Below, piece after piece: positions 1,773 through 49,300 of a stretch of DNA of 64,000 nucleotides. Where the stretch lies: assembly GCF_964355755.1 (NCBI RefSeq), contig NC_092676.1, positions 1,408,288 to 1,472,287 of the forward strand, read 5' to 3'. Source of the DNA: Antedon mediterranea (lineage: Eukaryota > Echinodermata > Crinoidea > Comatulida > Antedonidae). The position numbers were made by a program, and so were the translations under genes. The notes under the pieces were generated by a model. That model was not told the origin of the DNA, made no database searches, and saw nothing but the letters and a program-made list of their open reading frames with translations. Numbering within the stretch: position 1 is the stretch's first letter; every line of letters starts with the position of its first letter.

Positions 1773-1935
1773 TTTATGTTTTCTACTATTTTTACCTTCT
1801 TATTGTACAGTAAGTGTTTTGTATTTGTTATCTTGTTTTGCCCTGCATATGCTTGGTCTTCCAAGCTGTAACCTGAGATGTTTGTTACATTCTTATGTTT
1901 TTAAAATAAAGGATGATTTTTACAATTTCTCTAAT
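1773..1935 (+). repeat. Dispersed ~165-bp repeat, copy 1
   Basis: Matches 26671-26841 over most of its length, including CTTGTTTTGCC, TTGGTC.TCCAAGCTG and ACCTGA.ATGTT.GTTACATTCTT. Both copies are open in one frame, which produces similar hydrophobic ORFs, but the divergence includes indels. I read it as an unclassified repeat, not a gene. Confidence 0.6.
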
Positions 1936-2476
1936 CCATTCATTTTTTCACTGTAAAGATTCTCGTTTCCGTGACCACCTCATTCTTTTCTCATATCATA
2001 ACGCCTTTCATTAAACCTCTTAATGATTTGTTTACGTTTCTTCTACTTCCTATTACCATACAGCGAGTCACTCATTGTTACAGTAGGTTATATAACATTA
2101 AAACACATTATAAACACATTTCCTCAGAAATGATTAACTCATAAATATTTAAATGAAATCTGTTATGTAACAACTGATAAGTATTGTAAGGTATTTCCTT
2201 ATACAAATTATTTAATTATTAGTTATAAAGGATTATTTGATATTAAAAACAAAAATGATGTTATATTTTGTTATATTCCTTGTTTAGTTTGTTATTTTTT
2301 ATGATTATTGTATATTATTGTAGGTATTGACTGTTCCAGAGTTCTTTGTCATCAAAATATATCATCATCAAAGTTCTCTGCTCGCACAAAAATCAGGGTC
2401 ACATTTTGTTAATGAAGTAAAAAATGTTTTAATTGCCAGATATTGGTAATTAAACATTTCCTACATGATGCATTGT

Positions 2477-3772: not shown

Positions 3773-4470
3773 TGCGTTCTTTCACTTCACAGACCCAGGA
3801 GAATTCCGAACACAAACGTTAAAGTTGGTCCGCCGCTGCAAGTTCTCGTATGTGCGTTTGCATCGGCAGTTATTCTCGAAATGAAGTATGAGTCAGACGT
3901 TGTTTGAATGCTCTCAAGCCTGAGCTAAAGCCATGTAGTTGTTCCCCTTGAGGTCAGACGTATTTCCTCTAGGTTTTTCTACGTTGACAGATGACAGTAG
4001 ATTCAACGCCTATTAAACCAAGGTTTCAACCAACCACAGCCAAAAAAACCACTGTCACTCTCTTGTTTTTCAGCTTTACCTACGATGACACAGTTCGCAA
4101 GCAACAGGAAACAATCTCACTTTCCTAATTTTATATTCCTTTTATGTAATTGAAGGTATTTCTCTGGCAAATTGTTCAAAGTATTCAAACTTTAAAGGCC
4201 ATTTTAGTTCATGAACTTTTAGGAATCGCTATTGAAATGTCCAAATTTCATTTATCTTATGAGTGTTTTCGGTCGGAACATAGCAATTGCACTTTTAGAC
4301 CATGTTTCATTTCACATGTGCTATTCTTTGCTATTAATCAATTAAAGTGTGGTTTAAAACATGCCAAAAGAGAAGTACTGTAATAGTTGACAATATCCTT
4401 CTCATTATTTTAATCTACATAAACCTGACAATTCTAAATGTCACTCACTCAAAGTTCACTTATCCTTTAG

Positions 4471-4581
4471 AAAGCTCTGTCTATCAAACTTTATGTTATA
4501 TGCCCATATATGGAAATGATGATGTCATATCACTACCATATTTAGGCATATCATTTGGCACATCACTACCATATAAAGTAT
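4471..4581 (-). mobile_element. MITE-A copy 2 (truncated)
   Basis: Reverse orientation. The left terminus AAAGCTCTGTCTATCAAAC has an internal deletion and the right terminal repeat is missing; the central palindrome around CCCATATATGG and GATGATGTCATATCAC is clear. Confidence 0.7.
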
Positions 4582-4881
4582 GAAAGGTACAATGTCAAAC
4601 ATTTCATACTGAGTGCAGAATATACATGTTTTTATTGTTCTAAAGATTGAGTCCGTTTCTGTTTTTTGGTTTATAAAAAATAACTTTTTTTAGCCAAAAA
4701 TTGCTCCATGGAAACAGTTTCAGAGACCCAATTCATTTTTTTGATTGATTTAGTAGTGTTAAACATAATTTGATGTATTTTTTATGGGTCTCCCCTATTT
4801 TAAAATCCCCGGAACTTCCACTTCAAAATATATAAAATCAGATATTTTAGTATGAATCAGCCTTGTCATACAATTGTAAGA

Positions 4882-5018
4882 TGTTATGAAATCATAACCA
4901 AAAGATCTCCACTCATAAACTTTATTTGAAAAAAAAAATTGTACTGACATGTTATGAAATCACAACCAAATGATATCCACTGTTAAACTTTATATGCAAA
5001 AAAAAAATTGTACTACAT
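4882..5018. repeat. ~67-bp direct repeat, interrupted downstream by a SINE
   Basis: Two consecutive units contain ATGAAATCA(T/C)AACCAAA and then an A-rich run plus TTGTAC. The start of a third unit (ACATGTTAT) breaks off at the SINE and resumes after it as ATGAAACCACAACC near 5336. This dates the SINE insertion after the repeat expansion. Confidence 0.65.
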
Positions 5019-5026
5019 GTTATATG

Positions 5027-5336
5027 TGGAGTGGAGCTGTGGCTTGGTGGTTATGATGCTTGGCTACCAATCTAAGGGTCCTGGGTTCAAGTCCTGTCAT
5101 ATGTCAGGGTTTTTTTCTCATGACAATTTACAACTCCACTCCCAAAGACTTAATAATAAGTCTTTGTCTATGTAGAGCATCTTGTGTATATGTTTGTCTT
5201 ATATGTTCTAGTGCAGTATATGGAGAGCCATCTCGATAGTGCTTTGCACTCATGGCAATCCTCAGGGTGCTGCACCGCTGTGTTGTCATGTATGTTTGCC
5301 TGAAAATTAAATAAAATAAAATAAAATAAATAAATA
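5027..5336 (+). mobile_element. tRNA-derived SINE
   Basis: The head has a pol III box A-like motif (TGGCTTGGTGGTTA, 5040-5053) and a good box B (GGGTTCAAGTCC, 5083-5094). An unrelated body follows, ending in an AAATA-type simple repeat tail (5306-5336). No cloverleaf with a 7-bp acceptor stem can be drawn, so this is not a tRNA gene. It is inserted in a tandem repeat whose third unit is split around it. Diverged relatives are at 49985-50110 (-) and 55535-55600 (+). Confidence 0.8.
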
Positions 5337-5926
5337 TGAAACCACAACCAAATGATTGATATCCACTGTTAAAGTTTAAAAACAAGCATATCCCTATTAA
5401 ATGTAATATTAGCATGCTAATAAAACAATAACATCCTAAACATAATTGTTCAGAAGTACAACCTTCCTACACAGAACTCTGTCTTCTTGTATACTTTTTA
5501 TTTTAATGATAAACATTCTTCCGTTTGTAGTAGAATGCTGACAGTCATTGAAATTTCAGTTATTGCCTTTGAGTTCACTAGCTAAAGTTTTGTACAACAA
5601 CTCCCACACACTTATCTCAATTTACCGATCTTTATTAAACAATTAGTTTGTCAATTCAAACACAAAAACAACAGTTAGGCCCATTAAACAACAGTTGTGG
5701 TTTTTATTGTACTGTGTTGTTCCTGCCCACAAATGTCTTTTTTTCATAAAATGATTGAAAATTTGATTTATTCACTGTAGTGTCACTGTTGCAGTTTAAT
5801 GGTGATCACTCAATGACACAATTCGCATTTATATACATAATGAAATTTATGGACAAACAAAACCAATGATATTTCAGATATTTCAGAAAAAAAAACCACA
5901 ATTATGTGTTTAGTTTTGTTTGCTAA

Positions 5927-6016
5927 GCATTAAAGATATATGGTCCCCCTAAAAAAAATAAAACATAAAAAAAAAAAATTATTTTCCTAAAAAAAATGTA
6001 ATTTAAAGCAAAAAAT
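5927..6016 (-). repeat. Family D short repeat, copy 1
   Basis: Runs on the minus strand from TTTGCTTTAAATTACATTT to TTAGGGGGACCATATATCTT. The same two ends occur in the same order at 62787-62930. Partial copies with the first end only are at about 29578-29625 and 56090-56135. Poly-A/T runs fill the middle. Confidence 0.55.
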
Positions 6017-6169
6017 ACATGAATTGTCTATGGTTAAATGCAACCATTTATTTCATATTTTTCTAGGCAAAATATTATTTTTTTTCATTTTTGGCTAATG
6101 AATAACTATAATTTGATATAATTTTGTTTTGCTGATGTATCTTTACTGATTTTTCTTTTCAAATTACAG

Positions 6170-9100
6170 CTGATGGTTCTTCTGGTGGGTTCAAAGCGGA
6201 GCCAAATCGGTACCATCTGTACGTTTCACTGGCGTGTCCATGGGCTCACCGCACGCTTATTATGCGCAAGTTGAAAGGTCTGGAAGACGTGATTTCATAC
6301 ACGGTTGTTGACTGGCTTATGGGACCAAAGGGATGGAATTTTACTGATAAGGTTTATCTTCTATTCTATCTATTGTTACATTTTATTAATTTTATAGTTT
6401 AAGTGTCAACTACATTTATATTAGATAAAGATAATTAAAGATAAAGTATAACATAAATGCAGCTGACACTAAAATTATAAAATTAATATTATCATCACAA
6501 TCAAAATCTGTCTGCACACTTTTCTTTACGTTAAAACATACGGCAAACATCATTGCCAGATGAAGATTTGTTGACAACACGCACGTATCTTACTGGTTTA
6601 AGGTGAATAATTGTATACAGATAGTTATTAAATATAAAACCAGACGAACATTTGTTGTATTTTAAACTTTCTAATTCTTTCTTCTTAATATTGACCTTCC
6701 CAATTGTAAGCAGTTTTTCCCCAAAAGTTTTATTTTATTGTTTACCTTTCCCTATGATGTTATATTTACTTTTTACCTTAATCATTAAAATCTGGGAATG
6801 CAATTATATAATACAAATATAATATAAGCAGTTTACTATACAGTTGAAATTAAATTGTACAATACTGGTGCAACCACCTGCTGCTAAATAGCAGAAATAT
6901 ATTAATCAGTGTAATTTGCAACTGACGCCAATTTTCCTCGTTTCTGATCCCATAATATATTACTACAGTAAGCGTGTTATTTTAAGGGTCAAGCTATATA
7001 CTGGAGCATTGCGCCAGTTTTCTATACGCTCTTCCTAAATTCCTCACGCCACAGCAATTTTTATTTCACTTCCTTCCGGATTTGTCGTGTTTATTTAACT
7101 TTTACTCATTCTATTGGCATGGTAATGGTTTATTTTAAATGGCCTTCGCTAATATTCTGTTTATTCTTGTCATATTTATGTATTTAGATAGTCCAAGGAG
7201 TTGTACTAAAGTTCATCAAACCCCTTTACCACCTCTAAGCTGCCTGATCACAGCAATTATCCTCTGCTTTTTGCATCGCAAAATTATGCAGTTTACTTGT
7301 CAAAATAATCTTGTTATATTATAAGAATTAAATTCTAATTTTAAATCCAGTCCTCCTTCAAGTTGTGAATCATTTCCCAGAATGCATTTGTTCTCTTTTA
7401 CATAAAACTCAGCTACATTGTAACTGTTGGTATCATGTTTTTATTTTTGAGAAATAAATGTTGATTGACAGATTGACTGTGCACCATTTGAAATAAATCC
7501 AGTCATTGATTATTATTTCGTTATAAAATTTAGCGTCGAATCCTTTCTTGTTAATGTTATTATAAGAATTATTTTTCATAAAATGTCTTTATTTTCTTGT
7601 AGTGTTGACAAAAATGTTTTCTGGTTTTCTGATAATTGTTGTAATTTGAATTTGTTCATAGAATAGTTCTAGTAGATAAACAGTAGTATATTTTTCATAG
7701 CTAAAGAATATCTGATCTTTTCTAATCGAGTGTTATTTTGCGATTTTTCATAGAATACCTAATCTTTTATGATGGTTGGTGTTGTTTTGTCATTTTTTTC
7801 TAGTAGTATGTCTGTTTTTGCATTTGTTGACAAAATTGCAATTTTTCATAGAATAGTAGATACAGTAGTATGTTTTTTTTTTTATTTTTCATAGAAAAAT
7901 TAATCTAATCTTTTCTAATAGATCAAGTGTTATTTTGCGATTTTTCATAGAATACCTAATCTTTTAATTATGGGTGTTTTTTGGTGTTTTTTTCTAGAAA
8001 TGTGTTTGTTTTTGCATTTGTTCACAAAATTGCAATTTTTCATAGAATAGTAGATAAATTAGTATGTTTTTTTTTTCATAGAAAGAATATCTGATCTTTT
8101 TTAAAAGATCAAGTGTTATTTTGCGATTTTTCATAGAATACTGTAGCTAATCTTTTATGATGGGTGTTGTTGTGGAATTTTTAACTCGTTGAAGATACCT
8201 TGTATGGTTTGTGTTTTTTTGGTCCTATAGGACTAACTCCAAACCGGATATCCTCATCAAATACATACACCTGGAACTTGATAAAAAACATCTGAAGGTG
8301 TCAATCATCGCAAATTGGTGACCTTTGACATTGTTTGCGGCCTTTCCCAGAATCCATCATGCTACGGATACTTCCATCTATGCAGTCACCGCAAACTTTT
8401 TGTAAAATTATTCCGCTTTCTTGTTTGATATTGTTGTCGTGGAAATTAAACATGTGGAATGGATTTTTATCCCTTTCAAATTGACCTTACATTTCTAGGC
8501 CTGGGATTAAAAAATTATGCCCTAATGTTTTTCTTTCGCTTTTCCTAAACGATCAATAGATTTATCTCCGATAACTCTTTTTTATTGTTATTTCTTTCTT
8601 TCTTATTTGAGTTACCATTGTTGCTTCAAGGATTGTTTGGTATTTTATCATTATTAGGTTATATGCATGCATTCATGCATATAACCTCTTGATTCTGTCA
8701 GAATCTTTATTTATTTATTTATTTATTGGTTATCCGCAACGAAGTTGCAGGATAACCTCTTGTGATTGTACGAAATCATCATCATCATCATCATCAACTT
8801 TTTATTCTTCTTCTTTCTTTCTGTATGATTTTTGTGTAACGCTTTTCTGTAAAACTCGCAAACATAACATTTTGTTAACTATGTTAACATTTTGACATTT
8901 ATGTAACGTCGTCAAGCGAAGCTTTTCATGATGTTTACAATTGCGCAACGTGACGTACGCGCGATTTAACGATTTTATCGTATTTAACATATGTCGAAAA
9001 CCAAATAACATTTTAAAGTGAAACTTTGCAAAAGTTTAATTTATATCATGCGCTAAATTTCTGTTGAAAAAAAATTGCATGTTTTACACAAAGTTACGCG

Positions 9101-12100: not shown

Positions 12101-15100
12101 TGTGGTTTATGACATTATATACGCAGAAAGATCTTTGATCGGATTATGATACCGGCTATTGTATTTGCGTTAGCAAGATCCTGTCATATATTATAAATAA
12201 CTAATGATTCTGAGAAAATCAATCGATCAATATATCTTAAATCCATCAATTATCTTTATTTAAATCAATGCATATAACCTATAATTCGTCATAGTGACGA
12301 ATTAAATCTAGTTTTTATTTTGAAATTATCAACTTTTCTACGAATCTGCTTGGGGTGTAATCATTGTGCCATGTTGTGCCATAAAGTGTAGGTTCAAATC
12401 CCCATTGTAGGTCACAGCATCCCTAACACTGTTCTTACCTTTGTTAAGTATATATTATTATAGATAGAAGAGAATTTTTCTTTCTTTTTTGTTGATCCAT
12501 GGACCTATAAATTAGGTCCATGGTTGATCCAATAGATCGAAAGTACTAAACAAATTCTCTTCTATAATATTAGGATCCAAATGAAATTATTTCAAGATTA
12601 TTTACATTATTCTCGAAAAAAATTCATCTGTTTTCAAATGATTTATGTTTTTACTAGTATTTTTTCCTTTATTATTTGTATTAGAAGCCAAAGTGTACGC
12701 TTGACAATGTCAACAATGCACAGTATATGCGAGAAATCTACCAAAAGGTTGAACCAGGTAAGTTTTCAAGAAATTTCCCTTTCTTTTCCTTACCAATCTT
12801 TTCCCTCCCTTTTTACCCATCTTTTCCCTCTATTACCTTAACCCATTCTTTTCTTGGAAAAACTTTTTACATTAATTTAACCAAAGAATTTAACATTAAC
12901 AATTTATAGCGCACATTTCTATGATAAGCTCATAATCAGCGACGCTTCACATACTCTCATAACATTGGTTGAAATAAAAAGTCTTTCTTTTTTTTTTTAC
13001 TGATAATTATTGTCATTCAATATTTTAATTGTTACTAAATTTCTAACAAGTTAACTCAGTAAATAAAATGATATCATAACTTTTTTTGTTATTTTTCATT
13101 CTCGATTTAATCCTGTATGTACAAGAAAATGTCATAATCAGTATGTGTATTTTTTTCTCAAAATTTTCCAGTGAAAGATTTTATTTTGCCAAAACTATAA
13201 TTACATTTAAAAATGTCAGATTCCGTAATAAATTTCGTAACTGTATATTGATAATTTGGCATCAATTTAAGGATGTGTCTTCTAGACAGATATATCTTAA
13301 TTAATCAACTTGTTCCCCCGGAAGAAATTACAAATTGAGAGCAAAAACGTGCAAAAAAAAAAGCAAATGTTGCTGGGAGCATTCGTCTCTATTGTCTTGC
13401 CAAGATTTTAATAGCAAAAAGCCCCAAAGAAACCCTGTGCCAATTAATAGCTACTTCCTAAACGCATCAAGTTTCCTGATATCTGTACAGATAGCTGTCC
13501 CATGTATTTGACATGTCAATGTAGAATTTTAAATGTTTGTAAGAATTTCCCTATTATCCCTTCCTTTGAATTTCCTCAAATCAGTGTAGATGAATTGCCT
13601 AACATTCTGACTACAGCAACCCTGAACTATTGTACATCTTTTTTCTATATAGGCCTATCACAATCTACTTATTTTTTTCAATATCAAAATGGTTCATTTG
13701 AATAATTATCTGTACTTATTATCTGTACTTATTATCTGTACTTATTATCTGTACTTATTATCTGTACTTATTATCTGTACTTATGATCTGTACTTCATGA
13801 TTATGTGAAGCTCTTCTAAATCTTTTGCTTTCTTAAGCTCTGTCTACACTATCAAACTTTATGTGACAAAAAAATGTGTTGTATCCATATACTGTATGGA
13901 CAAAAAGACATCATATCACTACCATATTTGGGAATATTACTACCATATTTGGGAATATCACTAACTTATTTTGGAATATCACTACCATTTTTGGGCACAT
14001 CATATTTTTTTAATCAAAATAGTTTGCTAGTGTAGACAGAGTTTAAGATTTTGCCTCTCTTAATTTTACTCATGATCTAATACAGCTCAGAAAATAGAAA
14101 TAAACATTCCAAAAAAATGTTAATAAAAGTTTTATTCAAAGGACATTGTTTTAGTGTCTAAAAGTTGAAATGATTTTTTGTAAACATTTATACTAGAAGG
14201 CATAAGTGTTAAATTGCTTTTTTTAGTTTTGCACTTAAACCGAATGCCTCGTATCTCAATCTTTCAGTTCATTCAAAATAAAAATATAATATACATTTTG
14301 TAGGATACTCTGGTGCTGTTACTGTTCCATGTTTGTGGGACAAAAAAACTTCAACAATCGTGAATAACGAATCTTCAGAAATTATACGCATGTTTAACAG
14401 CAGCTTTCAAGAATTCTGCAAAACAGACGAACAACGAAAGCTAGATTTCTATCCAGAGAATTTACGTGAAGAAATTGAAGAATTGAATAGCTGGATCTAC
14501 CCGTAAGTGTTATACTTTTATACCTTGAATGGTACAGATAATGGTAAGGTTCATGTTGTATACACGCGCGGCAATTCCAGTATTTGTTGCTGCTCATGGT
14601 ACTGTGGACTTACATTACAGATTTACACTTTTAAACGACATGTCCCATATCAGTACCCCCATAATTCAGGTACTCTTTCTACTGTTTATGACATCATGGT
14701 ACCGCTATGATGACAGTAGGGGTATACAACTAGCCCCCTCAAATTTTGGTTGTTGGCAGTAGGGGAAGGTGTGTATATACACCTCAAATGTTGGTTGTTG
14801 GCAGTGAGGAAAGGTGTGTATATACATCTCAAATTTTGGTTGTTGACAGTGGATAGGTGGGGGGTTATACACCTCATTTTTTTTTTTCGTACATGATACA
14901 TGGAGCATTATAGAGTTAACCACGCCCTTCCTAATAAGATCAACATTAAAATTATCTTCAATATTATGAACAAATTTTTGAGTACATTTAAACCTTTAAT
15001 GACAGCCTTGTATGATAATGTTGAATTACAAATTCCTAAAATTTGCTATCTTTTTCGAAGGACAAAATTGATCCATATTTGTCTATTTTTAGTTTGAAGG

Positions 15101-24100: not shown

Positions 24101-27100
24101 TTTTTGCCGAGAAAATCACGAATAAATCCACCGTCAGTATTGCAGACTGTCAACTCATTACGACGAGAGTGACCGTGACATTGGGAATATACCCGGCACC
24201 AACTTTCTACGGGAAGTTATCACAAATACCAATCTTGTCAATCAGTTTTTGTCATGGCGTTATCGATGCAAACTATCTTGTCTGCATTTGTAATTTTTTA
24301 AACATTTTTCTTCATCTTTTCAAAGTGCAATGACATTACGATGCCACTTGTTTGTTTGCTTGCTTTCGGGTTTTGTTTGTCGTTGGTTTTTGCAGTCCAT
24401 AGATGTTTCTGTTTTTTTTTTGACGAATGCATTTACTATTATTACTAATTTGTCCATAAACAAATAATTTTTTGTAATGAAAATTCCTTTACTATTATAA
24501 ATTAATTTCTATAAATGTTGCATTTTCAAAATATCCCTTTTAAAATAAGTATTTTATTTTGCAATTTTTTTATTTTAGCAGTATACCTCTAAAAAAGTAA
24601 TGATCTTCTTTTAATTACACTTTTCCAGAAAATTTCAAAAAAGTTAATATGTTATAAATCTCAAGGGGAAAAATGTGTTCAGTGTTGCACACAAAATCTA
24701 AAAATAGCATAAAATTAGTCGGATATCATCTTGCTATGTAAAATCTGGAAGTAAAATGGAATTGACATGTTAGATTTTAGGAGTTAGTAATTAAATAGTG
24801 ACCATTCATCTGTTGTAAATTCTAACTCTCTGAGTCATCATATCCACTACAAGTTATCAAGGGTTTATTTTTTGTACCATTCAGGTTGTAAAAGCGATGT
24901 GTTGTTAACTTAAGCTCTGTTTACACTATCAAACTAGTTTGACAAAAAAGTGTGATGTGCTCAAATATGGTAGTGATATGATTAAATATGGTAGTGATAT
25001 GACATCATCATGTCCATATATGGACACATAACATTTTTTTGTCACATCAAGTTTGATAGTGTAGACAGAGCTTTAGTAGCATTTTTTACTTTGAAAGAAA
25101 CATTTCACATTTATAGAAATTCATTTAAATATTATTTTTTTTTTTAGATCATATTTTTTCTTCCAATATGAAAATTAAATAATCGTTACTTCTTTTATTA
25201 TTTAACTAAAAAATAGATTTTTTTGTAAATCTACTGATTGCAACCTTCACTTAGCTAATGACAATATCCCGTGACTACATTGCCGCAGAATGCATTACTT
25301 CCAATTTTACATATAGTTTACTGGTTGTATAAAATAGTTTACATATTAATTTATAGAAATACTGATAGCTCTACATCAATTATGAAATGGTATATCAATA
25401 GGACTTTGCACAACAATGCCCTGATATTTTTTCAACTTCTTTTGAAGAACTTTACACTAGTGATTGTAATCCACATGTTGTTCAGCATCAAAACAAACAA
25501 GCCTGTAGTCGGGATTCTTACAGGAAAGTTCTTATTTTCCTCAAATGGCACTTATTTCCACAAACTAGCGGACAAAATCATCATAAGCTAGGCTTAGTCA
25601 GTCTCCTCCAAACCCAAACTCCAAAAAAGTTTTAAATTTATTCAAATATTTTAAATGTTTTTGTTGTTACAGGACAATAGTGATGGACTTAGTTTCTCTG
25701 TCGCCCAAAAATGACTTTTTATTTGTTTTGTCTATGTACATATGTTAATGTTTGATTTCGGTCTAAGTAAATGTTCAATTGAATGAGATTATAGCATTTA
25801 GAACAATATTATTTGGAAATGATATGCACTTTATATTTAGATTATTTTATGAACAATTGAGTGCTGAATAAAAGCTAGGAAGGAAACGAACGACAAATCA
25901 ATCAAAGTGCATACTACATACGTCAAAGAAATAGTTGCTCACACATAAAGCTCTGTCTACACTATCAAATTTTATGTGACAACAAAATGTGATGTGTCCA
26001 TATATGGATACGATGATGTCATATCACTACCATATTTGGGCATATCACTACCATATTTGGGCATATCACTACCATATTTGGGCACATTACACTAGCTTGA
26101 TAGTGTAGACAGAGCTTAACATAATAAAGCTGAACACAGGAAACATATCCTCAGCGAAATCTGGACTAGAGAAGTCACAAACTTTGAAGCGGGTACATTT
26201 CATGGATATTGATAATGTACGCGGGAAACGATCTCTGACAAGTACAGTTCATGTTCTAATATAAACCACATGTTTACGGTTGTCCTTATGAAATCCAATT
26301 GCTTAGTATGCTATCTGTGTACCTTGCTAAAAAGCATCTTCATTGAAATAAGCAATGAATTTTAAAACACATTTTATTCAGATATTCTTTTAATGTATGA
26401 TTGAATGTAAATGTTAATGTGCCTACAGTGTGCTTCTGTAATGACATTTTCAGATAGAAATGATTAGCTTTTCTTAATATACAACATATTATTATTACGA
26501 TTATTCTATTATATTTTATAGTTTATGTACAGCGCTTAGAGGTTTCACAATATTAAGCGCTATAACTCCAGGATATTATTATTATTATTACTGTACAATG
26601 TTTACAAATTTAAATTTTTTTTAAAAATTAATTTTCAATTTAAACTATAAATTTTTATAATAATCTGAATTTTATGAGTTTTATACTATTTTTACTTTCT
26701 TATTTTAGTGTTTTGTATTTGTTTGTCTTGTTTTGCCTTACATATGTTTGGTCCTCCAAGCTGAGACCTGAAATGTTCGTTACATTCTTGTGTGTTTTAT
26801 TTGAAACAAAAGATGATTTTACACATATTCTACTCTCTAAGATTTCTCAATGCAATAATGAGTGTACCTTAATACCTTTCAGGTATATTAACAATGGCGT
26901 ATATAGATCTGGGTTTGCTACGACACAAGAGGCATATGACACAGCAGTGAGGGCTCTGTTTGTGCATCTTGACAAGGTAATAGCAAACGTGAAATGTGTA
27001 CAATCAAGTGATTGTGATAATCATTTGTGAATAAAATCAAATCACATATTTGATGACTTTGATGTTAAAGCCACTGAATCATTTTAACTATTTCAAAAAT

Positions 27101-30100
27101 AGTGAGTGAACTTCCCGACACATATCATTTTAGTTTATCATTTTCAGGTTGAAGAGATTCTTAGTCGCAAGAGATACCTGACAGGCAACACCCTAACTGA
27201 AGCAGACATTAGACTCTTTACAACTCTTGTGCGCTTTGACACCGTTTATGTTGGCCATTTTAAGGTATCACACACATTACATTACATATTTGACACCGTT
27301 TATGTTGGCCATTTTAAGGTATCACACACATTACATTACATATTTGACACCGTTTATGTTGACCATTTTAAGATATCACACACATTACATTACATATTTG
27401 ACACCGTTTATGTTGGCCATTTTAAGGTATCACACACATTACATTACATATTTGACACCGTTTATGTTGGCCATTTTAAGGTATCACACACATTACATTA
27501 CATATTTGACACCGTTTATTTCCACCATTTTAAGATATCATTCACAATATATATTTTATGCATTTCATACATCTTTTCAACATTTTTTTCCGATTTTTAA
27601 GAAATAAAATCACCCTTTAATGTAGACAAAACATTTTTTGGATGAAATAAAAACTCCTTTTTTTTATCTTTTTTTTTTACATATATTACCTCTGGATAGA
27701 TTCATGATTTATGTCTGTTAGCTCTATGTCAATAGTTTTGTAAATTAACTGACTTTATTTTTATAGTGCAACAAGAAACGTATAATGGATTATCCAAATA
27801 TTTGGGGATATGTACGAGATATCTACCAGATGGATGGAATAGCAGAAACCGTTGATCAAGAGCATATTCAAAAACATTACCAGGTTTGTAAACATTACAT
27901 GTTTCAGAGGCTCCTAGACTGTGTGCGTTGTGAGGACCCTCTGAGTGAAATATTGAATAAAAAAAATGTAACAAACGTTCCAGTGTGGCAGGTATTTTGG
28001 ATGCCAGGGTGTGGTCATATGTGGATAAAGCCAATTCAAAGAATGAAGAAAAAAAGATTTGGATTCTTATTTGGCTTTGTAGCAGTCCCAGTGTGGTTGG
28101 ACCCAAAACAAATATTTTTATTTAATTCTCACAACATGCTTCCAAAGTTTATTTTTTCGATTCTGTGAAGTTCAGGGCATAGAAACCCTACTGTAGACCT
28201 CTGAGTAATCAATCAATCAATCAATCAATCAATATTGATATGCCACTATTATCCCTCAATACGTAATAATTTAATCTTTTCCTATTTTTTTTTCAAATCC
28301 CTGGCCACAGGCCTGCATTTCCGGGTAAACAGAGACCTATTGTCATAATGTAATTGGCCAAAACCCATTTACTTCGGCCATCTGTGTTTGCGCGTCACTT
28401 CCAATGCCAAGAACTGTCCCACAAACTATTTGATTCGACCTCGCGATCTCATCAGAATAGTGTGGCTCATCTTCAATGAAATGTAAGGCTCAATGGTCAT
28501 GTATTCAGTTAGTTGATCACTCTTTGCTGTCCACTTGGCACAGGACTACCATAAACACACATTTTTTGGCCTTAAGCTCTGTTTACACTATCAAACTTTA
28601 AGTGACCAAAAAATGTGATGTGCCCATGATGTCATATGACTACCATGTTTGGGCATATCACTACCATATTTGGGCATATCACTACCATATTTGGGGATAT
28701 CACTACCATATTTGGGCACATAACATTTGACATAAAGTTTCATAGTGTGGAGAGCTTAAGGGACTTTGTCAACATTATTCTACTGGACAGTTACTGCAGT
28801 ACGTTTTTCATGCTGCTGCTCTAGCCTGCTACGTTACTGCAGTACGTTTTTCACGCTGCTGCTCTAGCCTGCTACGTTACTGCAGTACGTTTTTCACGCT
28901 GCTGCTCTAGCCTGCTACGTTACTGCAGTAGGTTTTTCACGCTGCTGCTCTAGCCTGCTACGTTACTGCAGTAGGTTTTTCATGCTGCTGCTCTAGCCCG
29001 CTACGTTACTGCAGTACGTTTTTCACGCTGCTGCTCTAGCCCGCTACGTTACTGCAGTACGTTTTTCACGCTGCTGCTCTAGCCCGCTACGTTACTGCAG
29101 TACGTTTTTCACGCTGCTGCTCTAGCCCGCTACGTCCCATTACGACTACTCAATCAGAAGCTAAAGCAAGCAGCAGTTATAGTTCTAAGGACAGACAGTT
29201 TTGTGAAAATGGAAACTCCACTATAATTTATTGATTCCAGCTGCTACAGTAGACCCAAAAAACGTCTGGGAAAGAGTCTATTAGGACATGTCATGCTAAA
29301 ATTACAAATTCCTAAGCATTTCTGGTATATTCACTGTCAGATATTCATTGAATTATTATCGAAACAGTCCATTAAAGTTTGTGTTTGTAATAGGATACTT
29401 CACAATTGAAATATCTAGGGTGATGAAGTGACCCCCAGATTTGACCTTAGCAATAAAATTAACTAAAGTGACAGAAATTGAGTATTCACTTCTATAACAA
29501 AAAAATAATATTTATTCACATATAAAATAAGAAAAGAAACCCCAAAACCATTGTCTGACAGACAATTTAAGTATTTGTTGCTTTAAATTACATTTTTTTT
29601 CAGGTAAAATAACTATTATGTGACAATAAAATGACACATTCAAAAACATATGAAATAAAAAATATTTTTCAATAAGCGAGCAGCGTTTTTTGTAAGAAAT
29701 ATTTCTTGTTTAACCTGTTTATGCAATTATTTAGCAAACTTGTTATTTTTGTAATCACACACATTGTTTATTACAGGGACTGCTTAACTTAACTTAAATC
29801 ATACATTGCATTACTGCAGTTACTGCAGTAAAATAAGTTTTGACAGGATCCATCATTGCAAATTTGATCTAGAGAATGTAATATTTGAAACATGTTTGGT
29901 TATAAAGACTTTATAAAATTCATTTTAACTATTAATTAAATTCCCCTAGCCAAAAAAGGTAATATATAATATAAATTCAGATGATATTCAACAACTTGTG
30001 TTTCACTTTTAGTCTAAAAAACTTTAAATGTCACATAAAATAATTCATTTTTAAACATTCCTAACATATCATATTAATCATACTATTTATTGTGAATGAT

Positions 30101-31829
30101 TATTTATAGAGGCTAGAATATTAAATATGAATACTTTTTCCTATATGAATTTGACAATTGGGTTTACATATGGGGACTTGTTGACCATGGAATTGTAGTC
30201 TATTATTAGCTTATAATTAAACATTGTGGGTCAGGGATAAAGGAAGATATAGTCCCTTGGGTTTAGTAGGAACAGGAGACAGCTACAACCCACTGTCCCC
30301 ATGTTTGTGTAGATGACAGGGAGCCACTGACAACTCACTCATGTCTACAAATGTCACACACAGGTCAATATGTGTTACTCCCCAGTAGAAACTGCTCTTC
30401 AATGTCTACAATGTTAAAGCTCTGTGTACACTATCATACTAGTTTGACAAAAAAGTGTGATGTGCCTAAAAATGGTAGTGGTATGCTTAAATATGGTAGT
30501 GATATGACATCATTTCCATATATGTGCACATCACATGTCTCATAAAGTTTGATAGTGCAGACTGAGCTTTACAGATAGTTTTATTCATTTACTTCGGATT
30601 CAGTTAGCTCTTTTTTATTAACAATTAAAGTAAAATTATTAACTACCTTTTCAAGACTTTTTATTTTACCCAATGTTATGAAAGTATGTAAAGCGCCGCT
30701 GTTTATGAACTTTTCATAGAAATGTATGCTATATAAAATCTGTTTACATTTCAGTGCTGCCATTTGAATCCTCCCAGTTACTTTCCGCCTTTACTCCACA
30801 GTCACATCCCCCCACCCCTAAGCAATTACTTTATCTCAGTGTGTACAAAGGTCACGTAACAGATAGTTAAATACATTCTACCATCAGACAACACCACTAC
30901 AATGATCATGGCACATAGCTTGTGAGATGACCCGCAATTACTAATTATTTTATTGATTAGGTCATCAAAAATGGGCGACTACCTGCTGCCCCTTGTCAGT
31001 TGCGATTTGGCTGCAGGGAAGGGGATGTTAGCCAATGTGCAAGTTTTTAAATACTTCCCTGTTACCAATTAGCATCATTAATCAGGTTTACAGAATCAAG
31101 GTTGTTATCAGTTTGATTATAATTTGACAGCCTGTTCATGAGTAGTAAAGTTAATATGCAAATTATTCAGCAGCAAATTGGACTCTGTTGGGCTGCATGT
31201 CACCAAAGGCGTTACAAAACCATTTTCACACTGATCCGGCCGTCTCTTTTCGGTCCAATGGACACAGAAAACTCCGGCTTACATTTTTCGATCACACACA
31301 TAGTTTGAATCAGATACGAGTTAATATTAAAGGTTATATTCTTAGGCTCTGTCTACACTATCAAACTAGTTTGACAAAAATGAGTGATGTGCTCAAATAT
31401 ATAGTTGTGATATACCAAAATATGGTAGTGATTTATTTTTGTTTAATCTGTTGACTGAAAGAGGTTAACAAACCAATTCAGTTCAGTTCAAAAAAGTGTA
31501 ATATATAGGTGTATAAATTATTTAAATGAAACCCAAATATGGTAGTAATCTGACACCTTCATGTCCATATATGGACACATCACATTTTTTTTGTCACATA
31601 AAGTTTGATAGTGTAAACAGAACTTTAAACACTTTTAAAAAATGTTCACAGAATCCAGGCTCAGTGTGAGCATGGATTTTAAATTAATACACCGTAAATC
31701 TAAGAAGAATTTTAAAATACATCTGTTGTTTTATAGGCAAGCCATCTGAAAATAAACCCGCTAGGCATTGTTGCTATTGGCCCTGATGTGGACTTCAACT
31801 CTCCTCATGACAGAAAAGATAGGACTTAG
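6170..31829 (+). CDS. Glutathionyl-hydroquinone reductase (Xi-class GST), first exon missing
   Basis: Reduces glutathionyl-hydroquinones to hydroquinones (family knowledge: E. coli YqjG, yeast Ecm4). Seven coding exons were joined by splice sites and phase: 6170-6351, 12685-12757, 14304-14502, 26883-26976, 27148-27264, 27767-27883, 31737-31829 (stop TAG). Exon 2 carries the thioredoxin-fold catalytic motif A-C-P-W-A-H-R-T with the nucleophilic Cys. Later exons carry the C-terminal helical domain, including [20 protein letters not shown] and [14 protein letters not shown], and the family end G-I-V-A-I-G-P. Exon lengths 182, 73, 199, 94, 117 and 117 equal those of the minus-strand paralogue; the last exon is 93 against 99. 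The expected ~73-nt exon 1 (start Met, ~24 aa) was not found upstream, so the gene is 5'-partial or its first exon is outside the window. Introns are large (up to 12.4 kb) and full of mobile elements. The exon 6 donor sits in a tandem array. Confidence 0.9.
7645..8170. repeat. Three-copy ~190-bp tandem repeat
   Basis: GTGTTATTTTGCGATTTTTC recurs at 7730, 7927 and 8113 (periods 197 and 186), each with neighbouring TAGAATA, ATCTGATCTTTT/TAATCTTTT and TTTTTGCATTTGTT(G/C)ACAAAA segments. It lies in GS-HQR intron 2. Confidence 0.75.
8728..10329 (+). mobile_element. Helitron-like element, inner (nested) copy
   Basis: Same architecture as the outer element with different arms: 5' hairpin GGTTATCCGCAAC-GAA-GTTGCAGGATAACC parts at 8728-8757; 3' GCGGATAACC, hairpin ACTCGTCA-AAG-TGACGAGT, then TACATGTCTAG at 10329 followed by T. 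It sits in a TTTA run that resumes as TTTATTTATTTATT at 10330. Internal sequence is CpG-rich for this window, has two diverged ~120-bp repeats around TGTGACGTCATC (9511 and 9875), and shares motifs with the outer copy (GCGCGATTTAACGA at 8959 and 10486; TACGAGCACGTC at 9327 and 10855). Noncoding. Confidence 0.6.
10980..11655 (+). mobile_element. 5'-truncated non-LTR retrotransposon (L2/CR1-like)
   Basis: An ORF at 11013-11402 (129 aa) matches the usual C-terminal tail of L2/CR1-type reverse transcriptase polyproteins: [13 protein letters not shown] followed by an R-R-x-Y region, then a P-R-x-W-E-E-L segment and a final S-F-x-x-x-L-x-S-L-K. After the stop comes a ~240-nt 3' UTR ending in AATAAATAATAATAATAA, the (TAA)n tail expected of this group. 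The catalytic reverse transcriptase domain is absent. It lies within the outer Helitron-like element. Confidence 0.65.
12453..12572. repeat. Palindromic element with nested hairpin
   Basis: The outer arms (TATAGATAGAAGAGAATTT and AAATTCTCTTCTATAATA) are inverted repeats. At the centre is a second palindrome, CCATGGACCTATAAATT-AGGTCCATGG (12497-12523). The central palindrome recurs at 15645-15681. It ends about 110 bp before GS-HQR exon 3. Probably a small MITE. Confidence 0.65.
13704..13798. repeat. 13-bp minisatellite
   Basis: About seven copies of ATTATCTGTACTT, nearly perfect apart from the last unit. Confidence 0.9.
13833..14046 (-). mobile_element. MITE-A copy 3
   Basis: Full length in reverse orientation, with both termini and TTAA-like flanks (TTAAGCTC at the left, GAGTTTAA at the right). 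Four internal units make it the longest intact copy. It ends 257 bp before GS-HQR exon 4. Confidence 0.9.
15187..15210. repeat. (TA)n microsatellite
   Basis: About 11 TA dinucleotides in GS-HQR intron 4. Confidence 0.95.
15645..15681. repeat. 37-bp palindrome related to 12497-12523
   Basis: ACCATGGGCCTATAAATT pairs with AATTTATAGGTCCGTGGT, leaving almost no loop. Same core as the hairpin at 12497-12523, here without the GAAGAGAATTT outer arms. Confidence 0.7.
15920..16080 (+). mobile_element. MITE-A copy 4
   Basis: The right terminus is well kept (GTTTGATAGTGTAAACAGAGC); the left has degenerated to TTCTGTACTAGTCAAAC. Two internal units. Confidence 0.85.
17414..17487. repeat. 14-bp minisatellite AACCCTAGTAACCA
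   Basis: Five tandem units. It contains AACCCTA but is not the TTAGGG telomere repeat. Confidence 0.9.
17540..17820. repeat. Pair of ~55-bp direct repeats flanking a ~160-bp segment
   Basis: GTGAG(A/G)TAATTTCC(T/C)GCATGATC and AAAACGGTACTGGGTTT occur at about 17545-17592 and 17772-17818. The adjoining TATCATATTACTTATAACT also occurs twice, on the outer side of each copy. A third copy of the first motif is at 53807-53865, where it cuts off a MITE-A. This is an unclassified repeat family. Confidence 0.6.
19806..19924. repeat. 18-bp minisatellite TTCACTATATGCATTGCA
   Basis: About six and a half tandem units in GS-HQR intron 4; one unit has GTA for GCA. Because 18 is divisible by three, the array is open in one frame, but that ORF is not a gene. 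Confidence 0.9.
20700..20800 (-). mobile_element. Penelope-like element fragment with hammerhead-like core
   Basis: On the minus strand: CTCCTGAAGATGATC, a short loop, TTGATTGAAACGTCGAGAAA, then a GAACT-containing hairpin and ACGTGGTG. CTGAAGA - stem - GAAAC - GTC is the hammerhead ribozyme core order (consensus CUGAUGA...GAAA...UH), and TGAAGATGATC...GAAACGTC is a familiar signature of Penelope-like element termini. No reverse transcriptase or GIY-YIG ORF is nearby. Confidence 0.45.
21720..21881 (+). mobile_element. MITE-A copy 5
   Basis: Both termini present, with TTAA at each end; the left terminus has lost two bases (TTAAGCTCTTCTACAC). Two internal units. Confidence 0.9.
24910..25075 (+). 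mobile_element. MITE-A copy 6 (near consensus)
   Basis: Both termini and the long inner arms (TTTGACAAAAAAGTGTGATG against CACATCAAG) are intact. Two internal units. Useful as a reference copy of the family. Confidence 0.92.
25946..26119 (-). mobile_element. MITE-A copy 7
   Basis: Reverse orientation, with three internal units (ATCACTACCATATTTGGGCA) in a clean tandem row. Both termini are intact. Confidence 0.92.
26521..26590 (+). mobile_element. Retroposon 3' tail with (ATT)n
   Basis: CAGCGCTTAGAGGTTTC, then AAGCGCTATAACTCC, ending in ATTATTATTATTA. This AGCGCTATA-plus-trinucleotide tail is a common end of L2-type LINEs and their SINEs in marine invertebrates. The body upstream is not recognisable. 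Confidence 0.45.
26671..26841 (+). repeat. Dispersed ~165-bp repeat, copy 2
   Basis: Partner of 1773-1935. It ends 41 bp before GS-HQR exon 5, so part of it may act as the upstream end of the intron's acceptor region. Confidence 0.6.
27235..27558 (+). repeat. 54-bp in-frame tandem array containing exon 6 end and splice donor
   Basis: Six 54-bp units start at 27235, 27289, 27343, 27397, 27451 and 27505. Each begins with the last 30 nt of GS-HQR exon 6 (encoding [10 protein letters not shown]) and continues with 24 nt of intron. Units 1, 2, 4 and 5 are identical and keep AAG|GTATCA donors (GT at 27265, 27319, 27427, 27481). Units 3 and 6 have AAGATATCA, so no donor. The unit is 18 codons and has no stop in the exon's frame, so each donor choice would keep the frame (exon 6 of 117, 171, 279 or 333 nt). 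The paralogue on the minus strand has one copy only. Confidence 0.93.
28572..28759 (-). mobile_element. MITE-A copy 8
   Basis: Reverse orientation, four internal units, TTAA at both ends. The right terminus is slightly shortened (TAGTGTGGAGAGC). Confidence 0.9.
28790..29134. repeat. 43-bp minisatellite, 8 units
   Basis: The unit holds the palindrome TACTGCAGTA, then CGTTTTTCACGCTGCTGC and TCTAGCC(T/C)GCTACG. Two variants differ by CCTGC or CCCGC and group together: CCTGC in the left units, CCCGC in the right. Confidence 0.93.
30414..30571 (+). mobile_element. MITE-A copy 9
   Basis: Ends in TTAAAGCTCTG and GAGCTTTA. Two internal units (one ATGGTAGTGGTATG variant). Confidence 0.88.
31342..31627 (+). 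mobile_element. MITE-A copy 10, interrupted
   Basis: A full copy split by ~95 bp of unrelated sequence (about 31436-31530) between internal units. Both termini are recognisable (GGCTCTGTCTACACTATC; GTTTGATAGTGTAAACAGAAC). It ends 110 bp before the last GS-HQR exon. Confidence 0.85.
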
Positions 31830-32235: not shown

Positions 32236-32356
32236 ACAAAGTGGCAACAACATTAGAAATAACATTCAAAATAATTATATTTATTTAAGGTAATGATGAG
32301 AAATTTTCAATTTTTAGAATATTTTTACTATTAATAGATCCAAAGGCAAATTACTG

Positions 32357-32950
32357 AAAAAATGACAATTCTGTGGGTATCAGTTGCTGGATCTCAATGG
32401 AGATACCAAATAAAATAAGCACTGACAAAATGACAATTCTGTGGGTATCAGTGACTGGATCTCAATGGAGATACCAAATAAAATAAGCACTGACAAAATG
32501 ACAATTCTGTGGGTATCAGTGGCTGGATCTCAATGGAGATACAAAATAAATAAGCACTGAAAAAATGACCATGCTGTTGGTATCAGTGGCTGGATCTCAA
32601 TGGAGATACAAAATAAAATAAGCACTGAAAAAATGAAAATGCTGTGGGTATCAGTGGCTGGATCTCAATGGAGATACCAAATAAAATAAGCACTGACAAA
32701 ATGACAATTCTGTGGGTATCAGTGACTGGATCTCAATGGAGATACAAAATAAATAAGCACTGAAAAAATGACCATGCTGTTGGTATCAGTGGCTGGATCT
32801 CAATGGAGATACAAAATAAATAAGCACTGAAAAAATGACCATGCTGTTGGTATCAGTGGCTGGATCTCAATGGAGATACAAAATAAAATAAGCACTGGGA
32901 AAATGACAATTCTGTGGGTATCAGTGACTGGATCTCAATGGAGATAAAAA
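32357..32950. repeat. 68-bp minisatellite, about 9 units, each with AATAAA
   Basis: The period is 68 bp (TGACAATTCTGTGGGTATCA starts at 32363, 32431, 32499). Units vary between CCAAATAAAATAAGC and ACAAAATAAATAAGC, and nearly all contain the hexamer AATAAA on the plus strand. It begins about 530 bp past the GS-HQR stop, and the first AATAAA after that stop lies inside it. Confidence 0.92.
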
Positions 32951-35619
32951 AAATTCACAAAGAAAGGTTGAGTAAGAGACTGTACTTAACCATTACTACA
33001 GTATGAAATTTTATAAATTTGAAATATTTAATATAATAATGTACATATCATATGCATAAAATCGAATGAAAACTTGTTAAATATTTGGGCGACAAAGTTA
33101 CTGACACAGTAACCGAAATTAACTTATTCTGGAGACGTATTTCCGCATTTAAAAATACATTTGTCATAAGTATTTTTAATCAGAGTAAAATTGTTCTTAT
33201 ATTGTTAATGAATGATTTCCAAATTATATTTAAATATGAACATTGGAAGGTTTTACCGGATACAAACTTATTCATTGGCCTTGTGTCCAGTGTTCTTGTT
33301 TGAAACAACAGGTGGTCGTTTCGAGTATGTAAATTTGATACTCACGAAAAGTAATGGAAATTAACATATCATGGTGCTTTTATGATAATCAAATATTTTT
33401 AATTGTATAATGATGGTCACCTTGACAACGCCTATGTCCGTATCAGTGTGTGATGCCGACTGTTCGTCGTAACAAAAAAAGGTTAAACTTAAAAGCTGGT
33501 ACTGTACGTGTTACTGTTCGTCGTAACGCTACGTGGTACTTCAACTTTTAAGTTAAAGATAGGAGTATCCGATATTTACCCTATACACTGGTGTATCTGA
33601 TATTTACCGTCCGTAATTGTATATTTCCAACATAAATGTCGGAGTTATAATAGTATTAGTTGTCGGTTATTGGATTATGACGTCATCAAATACGTCTAAA
33701 ATGTGACGTCCGTATTTTCCACAACTTTATTAATATCTTCCTCTGTTTCTTCGGAATTTAATATCGGAAGAGTAAACACAGACAGGACCTTGCGATGTAC
33801 ACCATGAATTCACTTCAATAACATTTAAAGTTCAAAACACTGTTTTAGTTCCGTTTAGAGGAACTTTAATCTGTTTACGCTGTTAGCGGGGTTTAGCGAT
33901 GTACAAGAGATAAACCACACATTCGTTTGATGCGTATGAATGAATTGTGAAGAGTTAATCGAGGAGAATTGACAGACACGTGCATGAAGGGTGACATATC
34001 GTACACACATCAGGCAAATAACTTGCTCACATCAGGATGAGAAGGGGAGGAGAACGACGCCAGTGATGTTCATGACAAAACATCCCGATGATATTTTTGA
34101 GAAAAATTAAATTGTCTAGGCCTATAACAACATCTTTCTGCTACCGATGCCGTTATTGTGTTGGGGATTGTTGAACTGTTGACATAAAGCATTGACAGCA
34201 GTCAACTTATAAATGGTCCTCCAGCAAAATTTATTTTGGCTTTTTAAAATAATATGGCCTATCATTTTGAATATTCATTAAAAACAAAATATAAACACAA
34301 ACGTAGATAGATCCATTCATTTATTTGCCCGAGAAAATGTGTTTCATTGGCCATTTAGGCTATCTCTAACTTTGTTGAGTAGAGCTGGCCACCCTTACCA
34401 GGGTGAATATGCCTGAAATGGCCCCATACTAATGCTCGGACGATCGAAAACTTTTTGGAAAAAGAAAGAAAAAGGCATATATGGCGGAAGGCAGAAACCT
34501 TTTGCGCATTTTATCATCATATTTTATGATCTTTTGTGATTTGTGATCTTTTTTTAGTTCATTCAAAAATGTTTTTTTTAATTAGCCACCTAAATTTGTT
34601 CTTATCTTCTTTTCTTGTATAAAGAAAGTTAGAAAAAAAATCGAACTGTTGTATTTATCAAATTCTAATAATTGATGAACAACAGGTTTCTGTGAAATGG
34701 TGATTCCCACGTCACTTATTAAGTAATAAATGAACATATTTATTATGTCAAACAGTTTACTCATCAATTTATATCATTATTGTATGCTAAATTATAAGAC
34801 ATTTCTCAAGGTGTTCGAATACTTTCACTTCTTTATCGTCGATACAAAACTCAGGCCTAATCAGTTGAGATAATGCATGCAGGAGGAAGCGGCAGGAAGC
34901 CCGGGATAAAACGAGGAAACCAGGTGATGTGTGATGAGAGACATCATAATGAAGAGGAAATAACTAGGGCTAGGGGATCGCAAGAAAACATGAAAACAGA
35001 CAACAGATGATGAGCTGAGTTACGAAAGAAAAACTGCAACAGGAAAGGAATGAAAGCCCCGAGGTACGACGGGGTGTTAATATACGGTTGTTTACATAGA
35101 CCTAAGATGATGTTATCATTTTGATGTGCCTGTTACTTGTTAGCAATTTCTTCTTTGATGTTTTCATGAGTTTTAGCGTTATTCAGACCCTGGAAATAAC
35201 GGTTGTTGTATTCTTCACAAAATTAACATTTATTTGGATACGAGTTTAAAAGATATCGAAGCATAATAAACTTTTACAACTCTTACGGTACTGCACTAGG
35301 AAAGGTTCTCCAATTAATGTCAGATGTTAATGTCAACTCAGAAAATAAGTTTGCAGAAGTCTACACTAGTAAACCTGAGCAAAATCCAAATTTGTCAAGA
35401 AAGGTTTTCCAACGTTTGTTCTGTAAGTTCCAGTCGAAGTTTGCAAACTTCGGTAAACTACAGAAAATAAGTTTGCAGAGCACTAGTAAACTTTAGTTTG
35501 ATTTGATTTGACTTCATCACTGTAGGCCTAAACCGGGGCCTAAACAGAGATAGTTTTTTTTTAACCAAGCACAGCGAAAATTCGAGTAAAGTTTATTTAT
35601 AGTAACATTACTGTGTTTT

Positions 35620-36149: not shown

Positions 36150-36800
36150 TCATTTTATGTTTGTCGCGACACAACAGGCGGTGCTTTTTAGTCTCGCGAA
36201 CATTTCAACTCTATGCGCTTTTTACTATAATTATGGTGCCGTAGATGTTTGTCGCGACACAACACGCGGCGCTTTTTAGTCTCGCGAACATTTCAACTCT
36301 ATGCGCTTTTTACTATGGTGCCGTAGATGTTTGTCGCGACACAACACGCGGCGCTTTTTAGTCTATCGCGAACATTTCAACTCTATGCGCTTTTTACTAC
36401 GGTGCCAATTAGATGTTTGTCGAGAGACAACAGGCGGCGCTTTTTAGTCTCTCGCGAACATTTCAACTCCATGTGCTTTTTACTACGGTGCCAATTAGAT
36501 GTTTGTCGCGACACAACACGCGGCGCTTTTTAGTCTATCGCGAACATTTCAACTCCATGCGCTTTTTACTACGGTGCCAATTAGATGTTTGTCGCGACAC
36601 AACACGCGGCGCTTTTTAGTCTCTCGCGAACATTTCAACTCTATGCGCTTTTTACTACGGTGCCAATTAGATGTTTGTCGCGACACAACAGGCGGCGCTT
36701 TTTAGTCTCTCGCGAACATTTCAACTCAATGCGGCCGGTTGTTATTTTTACTACAGTACCATAGATGTTTGTCGCAACACAACACGCGGCGCTTTTTAGT
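36150..36800. repeat. 86-bp CpG-rich tandem array, about 8 units
   Basis: Units contain GATGTTTGTCGCGACACAAC, CGCGGCGCTTTTTAGTCT, CGCGAACATTTCAACTC and TATGCGCTTTTTACTACGG; starts at about 36158, 36245, 36327, 36413, 36499, 36585, 36671 and 36766. TGTCGCGACA is a perfect palindrome. The central units have an exact 86-bp period; the outer ones vary in length. Many CpGs are kept, unlike most of the window. The 86-bp period is not divisible by three, so the ORFs across it are chance. Confidence 0.93.
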
Positions 36801-46387: not shown

Positions 46388-49300
46388 ATGTCGAACCAAG
46401 AAAACCGAATGAAATCCTTCAAGAACAAAGGTCGCGACAACCAGGTATACATTTTTTTTTATTACTGTATTAACAAATTTTATCTAAAATAAATGGTAAA
46501 GTGTCACATTAAATTTTATCCTTTTTTTTAAACACAGGAAATGAGACGAAGGAGAGCAGACGTTTCTGTGGAGCTAAGAAAAAGTCGCAAAAATGACCAG
46601 CTTCTAAAAAGGAGAAACGTGACCGTTGATAATGAACCCACAAGTCCGCTCCAACAACAAAAACAGGTTTGTTATTAAGCTTGCTTTAGCCATTGATCTG
46701 CTGATTGTATATTAATACATCATAATTATTCTTTTTTTAAAGTAAAAAATTTGAAAGTTAGCAAGATAGCTATTCTGGTTAAAAAGCTGAGAATTTCTTC
46801 TTTCTTTTTTTCCAATTTTAGTTATAAAGATTTTAAAGATAATGATTAATTCAGGAAAAAATGCATTTTCAACATCTTTTGTTTGATAATATAAAATAAT
46901 GTCTACACTATCAAATATGGTAGTGATATGACATCATCATGTCCATATATGGGCACATCACATTTGTTGTCACATCAAGTTTGATAGTGTAAACAGAGCT
47001 TAAGTTAACCATCTAATGACAGCTTTTCTCTTAACTATATTTAGCCCACCAATCAATTGTCCACATCAGAGATTGTGCAAGGTTTGAAAACTGTCAATTT
47101 CAAGGACACCAAAGCGTTATTCTTGGCGGTGCAAGCCATAAGAAAGCTGCTTTCACGTGAACTTCATCCTCCGATTAACGAAGTCATTGATGCTGACATC
47201 ATACCGGTATTGAAAGCGCTTCTAGATCGTAATGATGAGTATGTTGGTTTGTGTGATGTCTATTGTCCTCCTTAATTTTAAAGCCAAACCTATAACAACT
47301 TCTGTGATACAGCCAGCCCCTATTAGGACCAGTTGCCTCCTTTTACAGGCACCACATGTGGCACTATTATTTGACTGTGATACCGTCCTTCAATGCTACA
47401 CATTTGATGTAAATACAGTGTTCTTCATTTTATTGTAATTATTTAGACCCAGCATTCAGTTTGAAGCCGCCTGGGCTTTAACCAACATAGCATCTGGTAC
47501 ATCAGATCAGACAAGGACAGTGGTAAATTCCGGAGCTGTGCCAGAGTTCATTAAACTGCTCTCATCACCACATAAAAATGTGAGTGAGCAAGCTGTTTGG
47601 GCTCTAGGAAATATCGCAGGTAATTTCTCTTTACAAAAATAAGTTTACCTAGGCAATGTGGACCAAGAAGATTTTTGGGAAATTCACATTCTAACTAGGG
47701 ACCTGTCTACACTATCAAACTAGTTACCCAAATATGGTAGTGATATGCCCAAATATGGTAGTGATGTGCCCAAATATGGTAGTGATATGCTCAAATATGG
47801 TAGTGATATGACATCATCATGTCCATATATGGGCACATCACATCTTTTTGTCACATAAAGTGTAGACAAGACATTTGAAAAATATATTTAAAAAAACTTT
47901 TTCTTCCAGGTGATGGACCTGATATGAGAGACTATGTAATTCGCAACGGGGTAATCCCGCCCCTAAAAGCTTTGATTGGTCCAGACACCGCTGCAACTTT
48001 TCTACGCAACATCACATGGACATTTTCCAATCTGTGTCGTAACAAGAACCCGTCGCCACCAGCAGCGGTAGCACAAGCCGTTCTACCCACTTTGACTGAT
48101 CTCATTTATCACTGTGATAATGAAGTACTTGCAGATGCATGCTGGGCACTATCATACCTCACAGACGGCACCAACGATAGAATTCAGGTAACAATTTAAC
48201 CATTTGATCAAGGCAATCTAACAATCGGGATGCTGAGCTCCGGAGATCAAAGGGTTTATCTGTGGCTGTGACACGATCAGTTTAGACACCGCATGTCACA
48301 GATTATGTACATGGTATAGAACTGTTGATATTTGTTGCAGCCAGACATAAGATCAAAGGACTGTTACGACTTCCTATCTAGGCAAGGCGAGCTCAGTGTC
48401 CTGTTGTTAGGACTGCCTTGGCTTGAAGTTTCTTTAGCCATTATGAATGAAACAAGCACGAATGTGCAATACTCGGGGTACAGCGAAAGAAGCTGTAATG
48501 ACGTCATAAGACCGGATGTAACGTCACATACACATTAATAACCGCGCTACCAAATACTGCTATACGGTACCATCTTCGTGACGTCATGGCTGCATCCGGT
48601 ATGAAATTACAAAATCCGGCTCTATAGCTTTGAGGACATGTCCCTGTAGTATATTCATATGCTAAATCCGAGCTCAATACTACAATAGTGTCCAGATGGA
48701 GAAAATGAGTAAGTACTAGACTCGGGTACCCCGAGTTAAAATAGTAGGGACATTTAAAAATTTTTAAATATTTATAAAATTTATTTTTCCATTGTAGCAA
48801 GTTGTTGCTGCCAATGTAATTCCACGACTTGTTCATCTTCTTAGCTGTGGTGAAGTGTCCGTTATGGTGAGTGTTTATTCAAGTAGTTTTAAATAAATTT
48901 TATGTTATATATCGTGGCTATAGTAAATTTAAGAGAGATTGAAGCAATTTTTTAAATGTCATGTAATTGTAATATTTCAGACACCATCACTACGAGCTCT
49001 TGGCAACATTGTTACTGGAACTGATGAGCAAACACAGGTATGGGAGTTCTTTTTTACTGCTTGAGCTCTGTCTACACTTTCATTGTCAAAGAGTAATGTG
49101 AAAAAAAAATGTGATGTGCCCATATATGGACATGTCACATCACACTTTTTTGATAGTGTAGACAGAACTTAAGTTGGCAAATAAATATATAATTTCTATT
49201 TTTTTCTACAATATGTATATTTATTGCTCACTGTATTCCTATTCAGCCCTTAAAAACAAATTCTAAAAACATTTGAATACTGTGCACTCTTTTTCAGGCT

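Follow-up and report, generated by a model that had tools for sequence, protein, structure and literature searches.

The copy number of minisatellites is expected to vary among individuals. In human IFI6 (6-16, G1P3), a minisatellite reportedly provides multiple splice donor sites, as Turri, Cuin and Porter are said to have described in 1995 (NAR 23:1854). Another source describes splicing from two downstream repeat units of IFI6 and a predominance of the 130-residue form (PMC4526556). Three further systems involve tandemly duplicated splice signals. In a potato RdRp gene, a tandem duplication over an intron-exon boundary created an intron whose acceptor was inherited (PMC4974935). In the C. 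elegans allele unc-73(az100), two donor copies with a spacing of 18 nt both take part in splicing, the upstream one more (PMC8865678), and in Drosophila introns were gained via tandem duplication of proto-splice sites (PMC2891723). Our literature search, which covered open-licence papers, found nothing closer than IFI6 to the locus described here.

This locus is a tandem array at the end of exon 6 of a gene of the feather star Antedon mediterranea (gene A), which we analysed within a window of 64,000 nucleotides, the whole stretch of DNA studied. As in IFI6, which gives several mRNA lengths (PMC4526556), the array lies at an exon end and its units carry donors; the use of later donors is described for IFI6 and is a prediction for gene A. 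As in potato, the tandem duplication extends across a splice junction and takes splice signals with it (PMC4974935), but the gene A array copies the donor side, has six units and contains no acceptor of the usual type in its unit. Like unc-73(az100), it has a single intron that begins with tandem copies of an identical donor (PMC8865678), although the worm allele is man-made and consists of two copies 18 nt apart that form an unusual overlapping donor pair. The Drosophila cases likewise multiplied AG/GY motifs by tandem duplication, but they arose inside coding exons and created introns, whereas the gene A array sits at an existing donor (PMC2891723). Gene A shows sequence features of the IFI6 type, namely an array over the normal exon end, GT donors in four of the six units and a unit that preserves the frame. 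We consider the array a candidate minisatellite providing multiple splice donors of the IFI6 type, and the use of several donors in gene A plausible. The units differ in size and setting: that of gene A measures 54 bp and lies within a conserved enzyme motif, whereas that of IFI6 is said to be about 12 bp.

Placement of the array in one of two GS-HQR genes

Gene A was placed by comparison with its paralogue, gene B, and its exons 2 to 8 span 6170-31829 on the plus strand. Exons 2 to 5 lie at 6170-6351, 12685-12757, 14304-14502 and 26883-26976; exon 6, ending at donor 1, at 27148-27264 (117 nt); exon 7, which is joined in phase 0 from any donor, at 27767-27883; and exon 8 at 31737-31829. Gene B, on the minus strand at 53168-56661, follows the same exon plan with a single exon 6 donor (AAG/GTTAGT), and matches the Antedon mediterranea protein P0081 over 317 of 317 residues. 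Exon lengths and phases are equal in the two genes through exon 7 (182, 73, 199, 94, 117 and 117 nt for exons 2 to 7). The gene A product scores above the cut-off for PF13409 and PF13410, the GST N- and C-terminal domains, carries the CPWA motif as ACPWAH in exon 2, and has its nearest solved relatives in the Xi class (YqjG, 3r3e, E 3.3e-110). These similarities point to a relative of the Xi-class glutathione transferases and a predicted glutathionyl-hydroquinone reductase (GS-HQR).

The array (27235-27558, plus strand) consists of six head-to-tail 54-bp units, in the order A-A-B-A-A-B', that straddle the exon 6/intron 6 boundary of gene A. Tandem Repeats Finder called it at 27235-27540 with 5.7 copies, 96% matches and a score of 563, and the comparison of units agreed, in line with the six units across this boundary proposed in an earlier note on this DNA. 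Each intact unit comprises 30 nt of exon and 24 nt of intron, with the donor AAG/GTATCA at the boundary; by sequence and alignment, the exonic part of unit 1 (27235-27264, plus strand) contains the catalytic-triad tyrosine. Relative to unit 1, units 2, 4 and 5 have no changes, unit 3 has two and unit 6 has 13, the last being a decayed final copy. Two changes are common to units 3 and 6, the one at the donor (position 31) and another G-to-A change at position 20, so that the donor losses are best read as one loss by descent; the donor was probably lost once, and we reject two independent losses on account of these common changes. The unit is found nowhere else in the window except at the exon end of the paralogue. 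Outside the array, the 30-nt exon part is matched best there, at the end of exon 6 of gene B (26/30), and the 24-nt intron part reaches at most 17/24, which confirms that gene B has a single copy, as had been claimed. The identity of four units could also point to an assembly artefact in a repeat, but the array is short (324 bp), units 3 and 6 are distinct and the flanks are unique, and we regard such an artefact as very unlikely.

Tandem repeats are common in the window, where 30 merged arrays account for 8.3% of the bases. When the 21 arrays of at least 60 bp were placed at random, they met the 27 junctions of genes A and B 1.39 times on average, with at least one overlap in 77% of trials (39 intervals from 43 repeat rows, equal coordinates merged). 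Because random placement gives this many overlaps, a minisatellite meeting a junction here is unremarkable. Real overlaps should be rarer than random ones through selection, and among all exons of genes A and B an array reaches only exon 6 of gene A. Long tandem arrays were also seen at 36157-36800 (period 86 bp), 32353-32951 (68 bp), 57757-58681 (37 bp) and 63786-64000 (25 bp), and intron 7 of gene A holds a recent minisatellite (28790-29135; eight 43-bp copies, 98% match).

The window also contains a short inverted-repeat family, for example at 13838-14041, 24915-25070, 25951-26114 and 47701-47810, which is probably MITE-like. Its end CTCTGTCTACACTATCAAAC has 25 matches in the window and its internal 21-bp sub-repeat CATATCACTACCATATTTGGG has 33, with none expected by chance in either case. 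Other coding features are an uninterrupted 434-residue open frame with immunoglobulin domains (2477-3781, minus strand), an armadillo-repeat exon (47879-48199, plus strand) and a frame resembling PAXIP1-associated protein 1 (61730-62362, plus strand).

Four identical donors in one open frame

The intact donors, all on the plus strand, have their GT at 27265-27266 (donor 1, normal product), 27319-27320 (donor 2, 18 additional residues), 27427-27428 (donor 4, 54 residues) and 27481-27482 (donor 5, 72 residues), whereas the corresponding positions of unit 3 (27373-27374) and unit 6 (27535-27536) read AT within AAGAT and are lost. Exon 6 would thus measure 117 nt with donor 1 and 171, 279 or 333 nt with donors 2, 4 or 5. 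The earlier note had described identical donors in units 1, 2, 4 and 5 and a frame kept by any of them, and both points hold: the 54-nt unit is free of stops and each of the four versions runs on to the normal stop. Donors 2, 4 and 5 match donor 1 at every position of the 30 nt preceding and the 24 nt following the junction, and pairing with U1 is equal in the four intact units (-5.7 kcal/mol) and lost in the two AT copies. By this measure the array donor ranks 9th strongest among the 13 donors of genes A and B and within the best 2.2% of the 7310 GTs in the window, and is ordinary for these genes. As the four donors are locally indistinguishable, position, exon context and distance must decide the choice among them.

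Several special mechanisms were considered and set aside. We found no special RNA structure that would hide donors (fold z-score -1.45, with 10 of 100 shuffles folding equally well). The U12 donor consensus is RTATCCTT; the GTATC start of the array donor is similar, but GTATCACA departs from this consensus at +6 to +8, and the equivalent donor of gene B, GTTAGTTA, is U2-like. Each intact unit contains TTTTAAG/GT. Splicing from unit to unit, of a recursive or mini-intron kind, is conceivable and would yield the donor-1 mRNA, but none of the 14 acceptors of genes A and B is AAG, all being CAG or TAG.

Given the upstream preference in C. elegans and the predominance of the 130-residue form of IFI6, mainly donor 1 would be expected to be used, with some in-frame leakage. 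Older work on duplicated donors is said to have found that the donor nearest the 3' splice site is favoured, which would predict unit 5, counter to donor 1. On balance, we favour a passive tandem duplication, with donor 1 dominant and in-frame leakage to later donors tolerated, and give this reading a probability of roughly 0.6. A silent intronic array, with donor 1 alone used and the later copies ignored, seems improbable to us but deserves some weight. It would fit the lack of inserts at the junction among aligned homologues (0 of 247 rows) and the favoured upstream copy in the C. elegans duplicate, but the later donors of gene A equal donor 1 locally and in U1 pairing, and in C. elegans both duplicated donors are used (PMC8865678).

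The active-site motif and the longer forms

The unit lies over a catalytic motif. Tyr216 of gene A, in the motif FDxVY (FDTVY here), aligns to position 254 of the 6gzf chain and would correspond to Tyr247 of the Natrialba enzyme, in the tyrosine triad of Xi GSTs, with a tag offset of 7 that we infer from Met(-6). In the yeast enzyme the triad consists of Y224, Y301 and Y346, with Y301 in helix alpha-6', and Y301 is presumably equivalent to the FDTVY tyrosine of gene A. This tyrosine is kept in all 247 aligned rows. At the exon 6/7 junction, which lies next to the catalytic tyrosine, none of the 247 aligned GS-HQR rows has an insert, the rows being the 245 best-scoring matches plus genes A and B, so that lower-scoring relatives bearing inserts would be missed; in P0104 a single residue is missing close to the junction. 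The Anneissia orthologue has a confident structural model (mean pLDDT 92.0), in which the junction falls between residues 246 and 247, within a coil (residues 242-251) between helices, the preceding helix ending at 241. An insertion at this point would, on this model, part the active-site motif from the next helix. Taken with the lack of inserts among the 247 rows, this suggests that the longer forms are more likely to be poor than useful enzymes.

Among the 245 homologues, two carry the catalytic motif twice: the copies are separated by 100 residues in P0161 (a metagenome protein, 288 aa) and by 286 in P0235 (604 aa, from Actinostola). Both are repeats of a whole domain or fusions, unlike an 18-residue insert, but they show that the motif does become duplicated among homologues, counter to the passive reading.

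The earlier note had read the array as a protein switch, and of that reading the four identical frame-preserving donors are supported while the length switch itself is unsupported. Since the donors preserve the frame, the unit holds the catalytic-triad tyrosine so that each step repeats the active-site motif, and the junction lies in a coil between helices, donor choice or array copy number could in principle tune the enzyme. However, an open frame carries little weight in such an argument. In the window, about 61% of GTs precede 24 nt that contain no stop in the required frame, and a period divisible by three (1/3) combined with 24 open intron bases (about 0.61) gives a chance of about 0.2, given an overlap. 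Ten of the 18 unit codons are coding in any case, which weakens the argument from the frame. In addition, no aligned row has an insert, and the substitutions that distinguish units 3 and 6 change amino acids and give no hint of coding constraint, although few sites are involved. We consider a length-variable switch highly improbable. It is similarly doubtful in the extreme that the repeat allele sets the number of catalytic-tyrosine motifs, each with an eight-residue linker, in the active-site loop and thereby tunes activity or substrate range among individuals.

State of gene A and origin of the array

Another explanation is that a downstream donor is preferred and that gene A, producing mainly a long or defective enzyme, is decaying. 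The seven exons of gene A are open, its introns are GT/AG and its stop is normal, all of which argue against decay. So does conservation: the donor-1 product is 85.7% identical to its Anneissia japonica orthologue over 287 columns, compared with 81.0% between gene B and another Anneissia japonica protein, and gene A has therefore been kept at least as well since the lineages parted. The Anneissia counterparts of the two genes are assigned to contigs of equal length, which suggests an old, linked pair. On the other side, pairing of U1 with the exon 2 donor is weak (-0.8), and exon 1 was not found in 1-6200: upstream of exon 2 there was no donor-compatible candidate of note, and three N-terminal peptides gave nothing convincing in this region (best plus-strand E-values 0.75-1.0). 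A weak match to an N-terminal peptide of a GS-HQR relative lies 5' of exon 2 at 4070-4135 (plus strand, E about 1), and is possibly a decayed first exon or chance. Protein searches with candidate lengths of 169-539, 98-311 and 209-665 residues (98-665 in all) listed no Antedon gene A product, long or short, among the best 120 matches each of 8000 or 7976, whereas gene B was listed in two of the three length ranges. The missing entry is weak evidence of decay, and the gene may be unannotated, badly modelled or weakly expressed. The health of gene A is uncertain because of the missing exon 1 and protein, but we think it unlikely that the gene is decaying under a preferred downstream donor.

Returning to passive duplication, we propose that the minisatellite was born when a tandem duplication took in the exon 6/intron 6 junction of this feather-star gene, and that the array expanded in steps of one or several units, giving the order A-A-B-A-A-B'. 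Donor 1 would account for the bulk of the mRNA and for the normal enzyme, while donors 2, 4 and 5 would be used at a low level and produce minor forms with 18, 54 or 72 additional residues, probably poor enzymes. The array would be tolerated because leakage leaves the frame unshifted, usefulness of the longer forms not being the reason.

If the later donors are not used, position or exon context strongly overrides donor sequence. If they are used, the locus would show, as a natural experiment, how the spliceosome selects one of several identical donors whose only difference is their position, here in an animal distant from humans, and would be a second case of a donor-multiplying minisatellite, now in the active-site region of an enzyme.
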